Source of the DNA: a virus | IMG/VR virus record: IMGVR_UViG_3300030116_003063 | Span: 1-26,034 of that record | DNA length: 26,034 bases | Strand: one strand, 5' to 3' | Part shown: positions 1 to 18,611 of the stretch, piece by piece | How positions within the stretch are numbered: the first letter of the stretch is position 1 | Layout of the letters: each line of letters begins with the position of its first letter | Notes under the pieces: generated by a model | Database searches by the model: none | What the model was told of the DNA's origin: nothing | Seen by the model: only the letters and a program-made list of their open reading frames with translations | Position numbers and translations under genes: made by a program

Positions 1-184
1 CTATACCTGCTGCCTTTAGTGCTAGACCTATACCACTTATACCTTTGCGCAAAGCACCTGTGCTTTTTTCAGTTTTTTTAGCACTATCGCCTATACTCTC
101 AACTCCTTTTTTAACGGTTTCAAGTTCCTTTTTTAAATTGCCTATTTCGGCAGTTAATTTTAATACTACCTCTTCTTGTGCCAT
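1..184 (-). CDS. Tape measure protein, N-terminal fragment (cut by window edge)
   Basis: Only the first 61 residues are present; the reading frame runs off the left end of the window. They begin MAQEEVVLKLTAEIGNLKKE and are strongly heptad-like (LxxElxxVkkgveSig), followed by KKTEKSTGALRKGISGIG. This opening, an amphipathic helix followed by a Gly-rich hydrophobic stretch, is typical of phage tail tape measure proteins, which set tail length and are ejected with the DNA. Its position after the tail-tip genes and at the end of the tail module fits. The ATG at 184 overlaps the preceding 46-codon gene by 19 bases. The call rests on the N-terminus and context only; most of the protein is outside the window. 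Confidence 0.7.
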   Translation of the reverse strand, partial: MAQEEVVLKLTAEIGNLKKELETVKKGVESIGDSAKKTEKSTGALRKGISGIGLALKAAGI

Positions 185-5665: not shown

Positions 5666-6196
5666 TTATATTAAACCTGTGCAGACACCTCTATTAAAGC
5701 TGACTGTTATTGTAAAGTTTGCTGCCCACCCTGTAACCATACTATCAAAACGCTCTGTAAATGGCTCACATGATACATTGTCGCTTAATCTAAAATCATA
5801 CTCACCATTATAGTCGTTTACATTAGTCAATGATGTTTGGTGGCTATATCTTAACATAGATATATAATCGCCAACTAATTGTAGCGTGTCGCTTAACACA
5901 AAATTTTCATTGCTTACTTGTTCTTGGTTTGTATCAGCTACTTGTGTGCTTACTAAATCCATAATGTACAATCTAAAGTTGTACTCTAACTCATTAGTTT
6001 TATAGTTAGCACTTTCTAATGATAAAAATGCTACAGGGAATAGTTGTGTGTTTGCAATATCTAAATCAAATATATCACCAAAACCACCTTGTTGCAATCC
6101 ACTAAAATCTGCAACTATTGCATCATGTAATTGTATAATATTAAATAGAGTTACATTTTTATTTAATTGCCCTGCTGGATTTATGTAGTTACTCAT
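5666..6196 (-). CDS. Conserved head-tail / tail operon protein, 176 aa
   Basis: It starts MSNYINPAGQLNKNVTLFNI. A run of strands and helices follows (FPVAFLSLESANYKTNELEY, then YNFRLYIMDLV at about 72-82), and the end has a WAANFTITVSF strand near 158-168. Strand pairs around a small helical bundle are compatible with a tail terminator or neck protein, which also fits its place between the chaperone gene and the gp10-like gene. Its ATG overlaps the stop of the -1 frame extension of the chaperone (ATGA at 6193-6196), which is itself evidence that the extension is translated. The functional label is inference from position. Confidence 0.5.
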   Translation of the reverse strand: MSNYINPAGQLNKNVTLFNIIQLHDAIVADFSGLQQGGFGDIFDLDIANTQLFPVAFLSLESANYKTNELEYNFRLYIMDLVSTQVADTNQEQVSNENFVLSDTLQLVGDYISMLRYSHQTSLTNVNDYNGEYDFRLSDNVSCEPFTERFDSMVTGWAANFTITVSFNRGVCTGLI

Positions 6197-6950
6197 TGCT
6201 GTATGCTTTGTTTATCTTTCTCGTAGCTTAAATATGTAAATATTTGTGAAGCCTGTATTTTTGTTATTTCTGTTATTTTAGTTACATCACCATTTGCCAG
6301 GCTATGTATTACACCGTACCAACCCCATTTTCTACTAAACTGCTGCTCTGTTGTTTCGTATTTTTCATCTTGTTTTGTTTCTTCAAATAAGATTGCGTAA
6401 TCATTAGATACTCCTTTCCTATATTCAAAAAAAAACCTAGCGCACCATTTACCGTTGCTATACTTAAATTGTCTTTAAACATATCTGCATTAGCAACACA
6501 TTTTGCACTATCATAATCTACTATACTATACTTGCCTTTTTTCTCAAATGTTACCTCTCTATACAACACAGCCATAATATAGTGCAGGTTTTCTAATGGC
6601 TTTGTTAGGTAGTTATCTAAATCTACAAACTCACCAAATGTTATATCTTTTAGTTTAGGATGAAAACCAAACTTTTTACCATTAACCTCTATTATTAAAT
6701 TTAGAGTTGTGTTTACCTTTATTGAAGAAAGTTTTGTTACTGCCTCTGTTATCTGATCTATGTCAGTTTTTTTGCATTTTTCTAGTATTTCTAATGGCAC
6801 ACCTAACAATGCACTTATGCCATTCATGTTATTTGTATGCTCATCTAAATCATCGCTAGTAACATCCATAAATTTTTGGTAGCTACCTAGTGTTACCTCA
6901 GTCCATTTTTGAGGTATGTAATAATCTTTCTCGTTAAGTGTTAATAACAT
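6193..6950 (-). CDS. Tail assembly chaperone, long form by -1 frameshift, about 252 aa
   Basis: If ribosomes slip back one base on the T run at 6427-6435, translation continues from residue 174 for 78 more codons. The extension reads FEYRKGVSNDYAILFEETKQ, then a segment with FSRKWGWYGVIHSLANGD, and ends with FTYLSYEKDKQSIQQ. The WGWYGVIHSLANGD and FTYLSYEKD blocks are folded-looking, with a pattern I associate with the C-terminal half of tail chaperones in Bacteroidetes phages; the zero frame over the same bases is not. The stop of the extension (6193-6195) overlaps the ATG of the next gene as ATGA, filling the apparent intergenic gap exactly. A true frameshift mutation or a homopolymer sequencing error would give the same picture, but either way this frame is the selected one. 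Confidence 0.7.
6309..6950 (-). CDS. Tail assembly chaperone, short (zero-frame) product, 213 aa
   Basis: Tail assembly chaperones coat the tape measure protein while the tail tube polymerises, and are typically made in a short and a frameshifted long form. This gene starts MLLTLNEKDYYIPQKWTEVT and has a helical body with repeated FxxLDxYL and LHYIMAVLYREV patterns. After residue 174 the zero frame becomes low-complexity and basic (KKQNKMKNTKQQSSSL) and stops at 6309, leaving 112 bases that contain no zero-frame gene. The sequence switches to a -1 frame at a nine-T run (see the extension). It is the first gene of the P3 operon, six genes before the tape measure. The short form may be a genuine product or may end through low-complexity out-of-frame reading. 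Confidence 0.6.
   Translation of the reverse strand: MLLTLNEKDYYIPQKWTEVTLGSYQKFMDVTSDDLDEHTNNMNGISALLGVPLEILEKCKKTDIDQITEAVTKLSSIKVNTTLNLIIEVNGKKFGFHPKLKDITFGEFVDLDNYLTKPLENLHYIMAVLYREVTFEKKGKYSIVDYDSAKCVANADMFKDNLSIATVNGALGFFLNIGKEYLMITQSYLKKQNKMKNTKQQSSSLVENGVGTV
6427..6435 (-). promoter_or_regulatory. Candidate -1 ribosomal slippery site (nine T)
   Basis: In the mRNA sense the bases are GGT TTT TTT TTG in the zero frame. Both T TTT TTT and T TTT TTG satisfy the X XXY YYZ heptamer rule for simultaneous -1 slippage of P- and A-site tRNAs. Purine-rich AGGAAAGGAG follows about 8 bases downstream; I see no strong pseudoknot by eye. It is placed exactly where the coding-like frame changes. Confidence 0.65.
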
Positions 6951-7060: not shown

Positions 7061-8374
7061 TTATTGTATATAATACTTGCCTATATTAGGTCGCAACTCG
7101 TAATACATGCGCATCATTAGTGCATCACTATAATCAGGTGACCTACCTAACATTTGCTTTACTTTCTCTTTTGGCAATATAGCTAGTTTTGTATCTTTAT
7201 CTATCTTATCACGCCTAACCTGCTCTAACTCCTTTGTCAAACTATCTTTAATTAGCGTGTTGTTTGTACTTACAAATACTTTGCCTGTGTTTATGTACTC
7301 TGCTAGCTTGTAATAGCATTGTGTTTTTAGGTTTTGATAGTTTTCGTTATTTATTGCCTTGCTGTTATTTACAAATGGCTTGCAGCGTAGTATATCACGC
7401 AACCCACCACCTACACCATCATCATCTACAATTATATTGCCTAATGGTACACTCTCTGCTCTTTGTATATCTCGTATTATCTCTGCGGCTTGTGTAATAG
7501 TGTTAGTATCTAGCACCTTTATTTTCTCTGCTCTTAAACCATTCCAATATACAATAACTGTTTTATCTTTACCAAACCTAGCTATATCTGCTGATATGTA
7601 TTTATTACCACCCTCTATAGTAGTGTTTTCGTAAATATTTAAAATAGCATTGTAATCAATTAGCTTATCTTCACTATCATCATATTCCCAATTACCATAC
7701 AACAACCTCTGCTTGCTTATCTCATCAAGTTTTAATAGTTGCTCTTCATAATGTTTAGATATGTGTATATTATCGCTTGCTAGTGCTTGTACAAACTTCC
7801 TATAGGCAGGCAGTTGATTTTGTTTGTAAGGTAGATAAAACTCATTATACACCCAGGATTTAGCAGGGTTGCAACTCATAAACAATTTAGGTATTAAATT
7901 GTACTCATCTAACTTGTACCTTATTCTTGATGATAGTATTGCTTTAGCTTTTTGTGTAATTTGGTTGCACTCATCAATAAATGCAAGAGTAAGCTCCAAA
8001 CTACCGAGGCTATCAAAATTAGGGTCACTAGGGTAACTAAACAAATCTTTAAGAATAACCTCACTACCATTGCTAAATGTTAATACATTACTACTACCAT
8101 TAAATGTGTAATCTTTATTTGCTTTTAAACCCCAACTACCACACACTTGAAAAAATGTAGCTAGGGTTGTTTTCTTTAAGGTATCTAGCTTGCTACGCCC
8201 AATCAAACACCTAATGCCTTTGTACTTAATGCAAGAGTAAATTACCCAGGCACAACCTATGTAGGATTTACCACCACCTGCGCCACCACCAAACAATACC
8301 TCACTTGTTTCGTTGTCAAATAAGTATCTAATTGCTGTGCTTTGTTTAGGTGTAAACTCTAACTCAATCTTCAT
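7061..8374 (-). CDS. terL: Terminase large subunit, 437 aa
   Basis: The packaging motor: an ATPase pumps DNA through the portal and a nuclease cuts the concatemer. The Walker A loop GGGAGGGKS is at residues 29-37, Walker B LAFIDE ends at D134-E135, and the coupling motif SCNP is at 167-170. The RNase H-like nuclease domain supplies acidic residues in SADIARFG (D263), IVDDDGVGGG (D317-D319) and SPDYSDAL (D414, D417). All the hallmark motifs are present and the length is normal for the Terminase_6 type. The ATG at 8374 overlaps the small subunit by 11 bases. It ends its transcription unit at a hairpin, and an internal promoter-like motif at 10210-10244 would place it under late control. Confidence 0.95.
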   Translation of the reverse strand: MKIELEFTPKQSTAIRYLFDNETSEVLFGGGAGGGKSYIGCAWVIYSCIKYKGIRCLIGRSKLDTLKKTTLATFFQVCGSWGLKANKDYTFNGSSNVLTFSNGSEVILKDLFSYPSDPNFDSLGSLELTLAFIDECNQITQKAKAILSSRIRYKLDEYNLIPKLFMSCNPAKSWVYNEFYLPYKQNQLPAYRKFVQALASDNIHISKHYEEQLLKLDEISKQRLLYGNWEYDDSEDKLIDYNAILNIYENTTIEGGNKYISADIARFGKDKTVIVYWNGLRAEKIKVLDTNTITQAAEIIRDIQRAESVPLGNIIVDDDGVGGGLRDILRCKPFVNNSKAINNENYQNLKTQCYYKLAEYINTGKVFVSTNNTLIKDSLTKELEQVRRDKIDKDTKLAILPKEKVKQMLGRSPDYSDALMMRMYYELRPNIGKYYIQ

Positions 8375-9823: not shown

Positions 9824-10001
9824 TGTTTCTTCTAATTTTTATTATACCATAAGGCTCATAATAATACCCAAACGCTATATCTATATCTTCAAAACTATAA
9901 TCATTTAGATTTAACATATACTCTAACTCACCATCTTCATTGTAAAACTCTATGTTAGGTATGTCGTAATCAGCGTATGTTAACAACTCTTTCAGCTTCA
10001 T
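9768..10001 (-). CDS. Unrecognised acidic small protein, 77 aa
   Basis: It starts MKLKELLTYADYDIPNIEFY, is rich in Asp, Glu and Tyr up to residue 52, then turns basic (KIRRNNEQTKLNGKN). No motif is recognised. It overlaps the sigma-like gene by 32 bases and the zinc-ribbon gene by 56 bases, so its last 19 codons are shared with another gene. It is the first complete gene downstream of the internal promoter-like motif at 10210-10244. Confidence 0.5.
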   Translation of the reverse strand: MKLKELLTYADYDIPNIEFYNEDGELEYMLNLNDYSFEDIDIAFGYYYEPYGIIKIRRNNEQTKLNGKNIQPPESKL

Positions 10002-10503
10002 TTATTCTTTCTTTTATATACCTTTTTACATTTTTTATTGTTGTAAAAATGCTACGCCTACTTATACCTGTTTTGTTAGCTAATGATTGTAGTGTGTATT
10101 TGTTGCCATCTAACTCACCAAAATAATATAGCTTAAACAATTCCCTATCATACCAATACAACTCATCTAATATACTCTCTATCAACTCTATGTTTTCTTG
10201 CTGCTGTGTATCATTAGTAAATATAAACTTCTGCATTTTAGTGCAATCTTGTAATGTGTGCTTATCGTAAAATCTTGCAATCTTGTAATAGTATGTACTA
10301 GTTTTACTGTGATACATGTTTGCCATAATTCTAGCTACAAAAAAAAAGAGTTTACCATCTTGTTTGATAAACTCCAATTTTTCTTTTGGGTATTGTAGTG
10401 TTGCCTCTAACGCTTCATGCAACAAATCATTTGCAAAATCTGTTTTACATATATTGCACGCTATATCTTTTAATCTTTGATATTCTGCATTAGTTAATTG
10501 CAT
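9970..10503 (-). CDS. Sigma-70-like transcription factor, 177 aa
   Basis: Small sigma factors recruit RNA polymerase to promoters. The N-terminal part (AEYQRLKDIACNICK, DLLHEALEATLQY, FFFVARIMANMYH) has the helical pattern of sigma region 2, including a DLLHEALE segment comparable to the D-x-x-Q/H-E-x-F motif. Region 4 is clear near residues 135-170: an ELFKLYYFGELDG helix, then YTLQSLANKTGISRRSIFTT and a basic recognition helix (IKNVKRYIKERI). I prefer ATG 10503; the TTG at 10518 adds five residues. A 14-base palindrome lies 22 bases upstream. The gene lies at the boundary between replication genes and the terminase block and contains a copy of the late promoter-like motif, so a role in late transcription is plausible but inferred. 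Confidence 0.7.
   Translation of the reverse strand: MQLTNAEYQRLKDIACNICKTDFANDLLHEALEATLQYPKEKLEFIKQDGKLFFFVARIMANMYHSKTSTYYYKIARFYDKHTLQDCTKMQKFIFTNDTQQQENIELIESILDELYWYDRELFKLYYFGELDGNKYTLQSLANKTGISRRSIFTTIKNVKRYIKERINEAERVVNIR
10210..10244 (-). promoter_or_regulatory. Promoter-like motif inside the sigma-like gene
   Basis: On the minus strand: GCACTAAA, 11 bases, TATATTTACTAATGAT. It matches P3 at 7 of 8 bases in the first box and all 11 bases of TATATTTACTA, with the same spacing. It is intragenic, so coding constraint could explain part of it. If active it would drive the genes from 10001 down to the terminase. Confidence 0.5.
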
Positions 10504-10524
10504 AGCGCATAATAACAAAATAAT

Positions 10525-10941: not shown

Positions 10942-11989
10942 ATATCTTATTAAATAAGTGCATTAACACATTTACAGTTATAGTGTTGCCAGATTGTTTG
11001 TAAAGCTGCGTACAGCTAACATCTTTTACTTTGTAAAAATCCTCATCTTTAAAACCTTGTAAACGCCAGGTTTCTAATGGTGTGAATTTTCTAATTTTTT
11101 GTTGTTTTTCTATTGCTTGTAAATTAGGTGCATCTAAACAATATGTTGTACCATCTGATTTAGACAAATGCCCACTACCGCCTGCATTTTTGTTTTTTTT
11201 TATAGCAGGTCGGTTAGCACTTCTTTGTTGTAAATTGTGTACAACTAAATCGCTTTTATGTTTATTAAAAGTTTGATTTATTAAATTTTTTGTTTTTTTA
11301 TCACTTAAATAATACTTATTATCTACTTGATTTTGTAATATATCTTTTAGCTTTATAGATAATGGTATTTTTTTTGGAAAACTAAATTTTCTAAATTCTT
11401 TAAAACCTACAATAAAAATACGCTCTCTGTTTTGTGGTATACCATAGTGTTTTGTATTAAGCACTTGCCAATAGATATGATACCCTAAACCATCATCAAA
11501 CATGTCTAAACTTATTTGCCCATTTTGTGTACCACCACCATTAGATAATATATCTACAATAGTTTGAAATGTGCGCCCTTTGTCGTGTGATAACAAACCT
11601 TTTACATTTTCTAATACAAATACTTTAGGTTGGTTAATTTGTATAAACTCTGCTACATTAAAAAACAATGTGCCTCTAGCTTCATCAAAACCTTTACGGT
11701 TTCCTGCCATACTAAACGCTTGACATGGAAAACCTGCAATATATAAATCTAACTGATCTATTTCTTTGTGGTTTCTTCTAGTAATGTCGTTGTAAAATGT
11801 TGTAGGGTTGTGTAACTGCTCAAAAGATTGTCTAGCATATTTATCTATTTCACACGCAAAAACGCTTTTGTGATTTATGCCTAAATATTTAAGTGCCATT
11901 TCAGGCGCACCTATACCACTAAAATCTGTGCCTACTTTTATATTTTTTTGCAAAAAACTTTTGTTAGTGTTTGTTTCTGTATTGCCCAT
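10934..11989 (-). CDS. C5-cytosine DNA methyltransferase, 351 aa
   Basis: It transfers a methyl group from S-adenosylmethionine to cytosine C5 in a specific DNA sequence. The motifs occur in the canonical order: I DFSGIGAPE (22-30), IV GFPCQAFS with nucleophile C89, VI ENV (127-129), VIII QNRER (186-190), then a variable target-recognition region (about 215-300), IX RKFTPLETWRLQGF (300-313) and X QSGNTITVNV (332-341). It appears complete and active. Its first 52 bases overlap the end of a PD-(D/E)XK nuclease-like gene in another frame. Phage enzymes of this type usually protect phage DNA from host restriction; the target site cannot be told from sequence alone. Confidence 0.95.
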   Translation of the reverse strand: MGNTETNTNKSFLQKNIKVGTDFSGIGAPEMALKYLGINHKSVFACEIDKYARQSFEQLHNPTTFYNDITRRNHKEIDQLDLYIAGFPCQAFSMAGNRKGFDEARGTLFFNVAEFIQINQPKVFVLENVKGLLSHDKGRTFQTIVDILSNGGGTQNGQISLDMFDDGLGYHIYWQVLNTKHYGIPQNRERIFIVGFKEFRKFSFPKKIPLSIKLKDILQNQVDNKYYLSDKKTKNLINQTFNKHKSDLVVHNLQQRSANRPAIKKNKNAGGSGHLSKSDGTTYCLDAPNLQAIEKQQKIRKFTPLETWRLQGFKDEDFYKVKDVSCTQLYKQSGNTITVNVLMHLFNKIYE

Positions 11990-17963: not shown

Positions 17964-18089
17964 GTGTATATATTAAAAGTTTGAGATATTGCATTAGCTG
18001 CAAATTACTAGGTTAAGAAATTTACAATATTTTTTAAAAAAAAAATAACTAATTATCTTGTATATTACAATACTTTTTATATAGGTATC

Positions 18090-18394: not shown

Positions 18395-18611
18395 TATTAC
18401 AGCTTTTGATTGTTGCTAACTCCTTTTCAAGTTCTACTATCCTATCTTCACACTCGTTAATTATCTTGATTTTTTTTTCTAATCTGTTTTCTAATACTAA
18501 AATATCTTCATCAAGCTGTGCGATTTGGCTATATGCTATGCCCATTGTAAAGATTATACCAACTATCCAAATAATATTACCTACAGATAATGTTAAATCT
18601 TTTTGTATCAT
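18384..18611 (-). CDS. Membrane-anchored coiled-coil protein, spanin-like, 75 aa
   Basis: An N-terminal segment (DLTLSVGNIIWIVGIIFTMG, about 4-23) gives one membrane anchor, followed by a coiled coil from about 30 to 70 (DEDILVLENRLEKKIKIINE, then CEDRIVELEKELATIKS). A signal-anchor plus periplasmic coiled coil is the architecture of i-spanins, which help disrupt the outer membrane in Gram-negative lysis. Its start overlaps the basic 40-residue gene as ATGA. No partner o-spanin with a lipobox is visible, so the spanin call is tentative. Confidence 0.55.
   Translation of the reverse strand: MIQKDLTLSVGNIIWIVGIIFTMGIAYSQIAQLDEDILVLENRLEKKIKIINECEDRIVELEKELATIKSCNNDR

Follow-up and report, generated by a model that had tools for sequence, protein, structure and literature searches.

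The window under analysis, 26,034 nucleotides of the IMG/VR virus record IMGVR_UViG_3300030116_003063, carries on its minus strand a gene whose coding sequence is divided between two reading frames (6193..6950). The N-terminal part is read in the zero frame up to a run of nine T's and the C-terminal part in the -1 frame, and the trans-frame product would be 252 amino acids long. The zero-frame ORF (6309..6950, minus strand, 213 aa, with its stop at 6311-6309) encodes the N domain followed by a 38-residue alternative tail. The run, a candidate slip site, occupies 6427..6435 on the minus strand and is read in the zero frame as GGT TTT TTT TTG AAT. The surrounding sequence CTAGGTTTTTTTTTGAATATA, minus strand 6440-6420, contains exactly nine T's (6435..6427), and two heptamers can be read at the run on the same strand: T TTT TTT at 6435-6429 and T TTT TTG at 6432-6426. 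The -1 ORF (6193..6474, minus strand) encodes the C-terminal domain, including KWGWYGVIHSLANGD, and has no ATG from the run to the WGW motif. After the run this frame adds 77 codons (78 with the shared Phe). Comparison of the frames shows that the stretch read in both of them, namely the zero-frame tail and the start of the C domain, spans 6309..6426 on the minus strand. The gene ends in an ATGA overlap (6193..6196, minus strand), in which the TGA of the -1 frame (6195-6193) shares bases with the ATG (6196-6194) of the next gene (6196-5666).

The upstream neighbor on the minus strand is the terminase large subunit (7061..8374), recognized by PHROG and Pfam Terminase matches; a two-frame gene also comes after the terminase large subunit in the cultured Nonlabens phage P12024L. 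On this strand too, some 6 kb further downstream, lies the start of a tape-measure-like protein that is cut by the end of the window (2..184, minus strand), its assignment resting on a weak PHROG tape-measure match (E=0.003). The original prediction had described the nine-T run, both heptamers, the -1 extension and the stop/ATG overlap, all of which are present on the minus strand, and had correctly placed the end of the zero frame at 6309 (ORF 6950-6309, 213 aa). It erred in assuming that a true count of either 8 or 10 T's would create one continuous frame: only 10 (or 7) would join the two frames, whereas 8 would lead into the third.

Homologues were found through their protein sequences, with the run left unused, and each junction was read without any assumption about the run: profile HMMs located the N and C domains, whose frames were then compared. 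The resulting set comprised 188 loci with 140 distinct N-domains, forming 43 clusters at 70% identity; some of the loci overlap, so that counts by cluster are preferred. They came from marine and other viral contigs, from phages, prophages and genomes of Flavobacteriaceae and Bacteroidales, and from the cultured Nonlabens phages P12024L and P12024S. At least nine T's were present at the junction in 188/188 loci and 43/43 clusters, and runs of 7 or 8 T's were found at none of these junctions. The length was T9 in 32 clusters, T10 in 10 and T11 in 1, with one T9 cluster including a sole T10 sequence, L023. In 185 of the 188 loci the -1 frame holds the C domain, and six more loci beyond the main set gave the same junction pattern. 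An unbroken run was observed in all 41 of the 41 clusters compared, against the 6.8 expected once the amino acids specified there and the codon preferences of these loci are taken into account, which is far beyond chance. The T count recurred in independent assemblies and in the two cultured phages. Protein searches started from the single distant relatives L187 and L185 returned no further relatives. A near-identical contig (IMGVR_UViG_3300030406_002876, L006/L007) carries a copy of the gene that is broken at about codon 70, apparently by an indel.

Aligning both frames with homologues, the check proposed with the original prediction, showed conservation of the T run and of the -1 frame alike. 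Judged from these sequences, tailed phages of Bacteroidota share a conserved gene that would yield two products. A literature search, covering open-licence papers, found no prior report of a two-frame family built on a T-run.

The run was found in three codon registers (NNT TTT TTT TTR; NTT TTT TTT TNN; and TTT TTT TTT followed by CAG or TGG). Where it starts at codon position 3, the preceding codon specifies Ser, Gly, Ala, Asn or Thr and always ends in T; where it starts at codon position 2, its first two T's end a Leu, Val or Ile codon, and the Tyr, Trp, Ser, Cys or Leu codon that closes the site always begins with T. Starts at codon position 1 also occur. The surplus T's are retained through differing codons after the Phe pair (TAT, TAC, TGG, TGC, TCT and TTG). 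On an N-domain tree built without the junction, the register changes at least eight times and the length class once, both counts being approximate because many forks are weakly supported; a further T10 locus, L206, is absent from this tree. Within the T10 clade the run slides while its length is kept (ATT TTT TTT TTG TGG versus ATA TTT TTT TTT TGG). As these comparisons indicate, the conserved feature is the length of the run, not its codon register.

Three of the 188 loci lack the -1 arrangement. L023 (T10 within a T9 group) and L088 (T11 beside a T10 group) each carry one T more than their relatives, and both domains fall in a single frame. In L014 the run is an ordinary T9, and the apparent +1 shift is due to a separate downstream indel. 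The in-frame protein of L023 has a high-confidence predicted fold (pLDDT 90.0, pTM 0.84), in which the slip site falls inside a helix (164-184) that is followed by a helical C domain. For the zero-frame product of the window, AlphaFold2 predicted the same N domain as in L023 (pLDDT 84.5), with the zero-frame tail extending the last helix to residue 204 before a disordered end. Across the relatives this tail is alignable, and between 25 and 85 of its codons overlap the C frame.

Homologues encoded in a single frame come from cultured phages (of Flavobacterium, Cellulophaga and others) and from Bacteroidales genomes, and the longest T-run anywhere in their ORFs is 4-6. Among them, the Duneviridae flavophages 23T, Ingeline and laban6 (PHROG 25418, found by profile) encode proteins of ~300 aa with the same N and C parts as the two-frame gene. 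These are read in one frame with a T-run never above 6, in contrast to the at least nine T's of the two-frame family, and presumably yield one product. The Microcystis phage Mea-Yong924-1 (2956-3780, L216) also carries a single-frame homologue of this Bacteroidota phage protein, and its host label may deserve a check.

By analogy, the protein pair is probably a tail assembly chaperone together with a rarer extended form. The tail assembly chaperones of lambda (G/GT) and P2 (E/E+E') are reportedly produced by a ribosomal -1 frameshift (Xu, Hendrix and Duda 2004; Christie et al. 2002). The gene described here is like them in being a small gene upstream of a putative tape measure that would give an N-only product and a rarer -1 extension, and P2 likewise uses T's for slipping (TTTTTTG) and has no hairpin at the site. 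It differs in its place after the terminase large subunit in the window, not adjoining the tape measure, and in its slippery unit, which in the Bacteroidota phages is an unbroken 9-10 T's in any register rather than a heptamer. The name tail assembly chaperone, given in the original prediction, is plausible from the two-product -1 architecture and from the Cellulophaga phage Ingeline, whose single-frame homologue lies a little upstream of the tape-measure gene, with two genes between. The same architecture, taken with the tail module, makes a chaperone role quite likely. Neither a sequence nor a fold match connects the protein with the lambda and P2 proteins or any other characterised chaperone. 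Pfam and PDB sequence searches for a named family gave no match, and neither did a fold search of the PDB, a result that does not show a new fold. PHROG 32199 and 38404, both of unknown function, cover parts of the protein or its relatives, and of the hits to viral models, 46 were to uncharacterised phage proteins and one, a weak one, to a 'Tail assembly chaperone protein' (E=0.016).

In the mechanism that we propose, reading of the zero frame would give the N-domain protein with its alternative helical tail, while a minority of the product would carry the C domain from the -1 frame. The control element would be the uninterrupted run of at least nine T's. On this run the host RNA polymerase would slip back by one and add one U, since its RNA:DNA hybrid of 9-10 bp can pair again along its whole length, and ordinary translation of the resulting U10 messenger would pass directly into the C domain. 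RNA polymerase slippage depends on the length of a run, not on its register. At least nine T's in any register and no conserved structure fit polymerase slippage better, and on the pattern of the aligned junctions we favor it, with moderate confidence, over slipping by the ribosome; we infer both the agent and the ratio of the products. The original claim that the nine T's bring about a programmed -1 change of frame was upheld in its outcome, conservation strongly supporting N-only and N+C products, while the ribosomal heptamer that it had put forward is not the better reading of a run of at least nine T's found in three registers with no conserved RNA structure.

Bacterial slippage has been described where 9 A or T follow one another, the hybrid being 9-10 bp long (PMC5009743), and on A/T runs insertions rise exponentially with run length (PMC5574713). 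In Shigella mxiE, an extra U at a U run lets the gene be read (PMC1088944). The other coding sequence of these loci, 157 kb in all, contains a single run of at least nine A's against 13 expected, an avoidance that fits slippage-prone transcription; runs of at least nine T's elsewhere in coding sequence (1 against 1.1 expected) were not depleted and are too rare to test. The window itself holds nine-A runs in the sense of two minus-strand genes (11193-11201 and 18470-18478), despite this depletion in related loci. It also holds a second sense-strand nine-T run at 10339-10347, in a sigma-70-like gene (9970-10518, minus strand, KLFFFV), which is absent from P12024L gp35 (annotated sigma-70 domain). 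A ten-T run between genes (18036-18045, minus strand) is possibly part of a terminator.

A ribosomal -1 frameshift, in which the tRNA pair on UUU UUU (or UUU UUG) would slip back one base at U UUU UUU / U UUU UUG as in P2 E/E+E' and the extra T's would only add slip positions, is a real but clearly less likely explanation. Phage tail chaperones classically use ribosomal frameshifting, the T TTT TTT heptamer is available in the zero frame in every register, and a long stretch of U's might simply make slipping easier for ribosomes. However, such a heptamer needs only 7 T's, yet lengths of 7 or 8 are missing from all 43 clusters, and the surplus T's sit at different ends of the site in different registers. 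Nor is there a stimulatory structure downstream, which is common, although not obligatory, for a ribosomal shift: in 43 representatives the mean folding z was +0.02, against -0.31 for controls, with no structure enriched. Values of z below -3 occurred in three representatives (L004, L018 and L032) and were not common to other clusters. A downstream hairpin or pseudoknot was rejected in view of this lack of an overall signal. P2 E/E+E' slips on TTTTTTG without a stimulatory structure (PMC3091744), and for this reason the missing structure does not discriminate between the mechanisms. Slipping of both polymerase and ribosome may also act together.

Other explanations do away with slippage altogether. 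Variation of run length at the DNA level within a phage population, with some genomes making the fused protein and others not, would have precedent in homopolymer contingency loci and could account for L023 and L088, each one T longer and in frame. A switching locus, however, should show both states at comparable rates, whereas in-frame lengths are found in 2 of 188 loci, and across deep divergence the length has hardly changed whereas the register has moved; we regard phase variation as very unlikely. It is highly improbable that the two parts are separate proteins, with the C part translated by re-initiation where the zero frame stops, as the annotation of P12024L_40/_41 would have it. P12024L does have an ATG at the zero-frame stop, but any -1 frame ATG before the WGW motif is found in 2 of 41 representatives (none in the other 39, and none in the window), on which count a separate start for the C part was rejected, and re-initiation would leave the conserved T-run unexplained. 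It is scarcely credible that the split reflects a mistake in sequencing or assembly, or a damaged gene, and that the intact form has 10 T's in one continuous frame. Homopolymers are error-prone, and the relatives L023 (T10) and L088 (T11) do read in frame; but among the 188 loci, drawn from many independent metagenomes and including two cultured phages, 185 have the out-of-frame length, which refutes an assembly error at the level of the family, and the run occupies three registers with both frames open and conserved.

Polymerase slippage, the preferred reading, has known counterparts outside phages. Shigella mxiE and spa13, Thermus dnaX, C. rodentium tssM and IS genes are read through transcriptional slippage. 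Like the phage gene, they carry an A/T homopolymer of about nine or more at which an added base changes the frame, and in mxiE a U added at a U run leads to a longer product, as proposed here. They differ in being cellular or IS genes with mostly A runs, whereas the two-frame gene would serve phage morphogenesis and, unlike those genes, keeps its T run in phages whose hosts span at least two orders.

Gene callers split such genes, as in P12024L_40/_41, or catch the N part only, which leaves the C domain unannotated. In P12024L and P12024S (L008/L009) the two-frame gene is annotated as two separate hypothetical proteins. The two-frame and single-frame homologues offer a clean natural comparison, and the Nonlabens phages P12024L/S a cultured test system. 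Two-product tail chaperones are a textbook case of ribosomal frameshifting; a register-free T-run, kept by phages from at least two orders of Bacteroidota, suggests that an equivalent result is achieved during transcription instead. We lean toward the view that, across the phages of a whole phylum, the ratio of two virion-assembly protein forms would be set by slipping of RNA polymerase on a run whose 9-10 T's match the RNA:DNA hybrid, so that the two proteins would come from two messengers and not from a shift of the ribosome.
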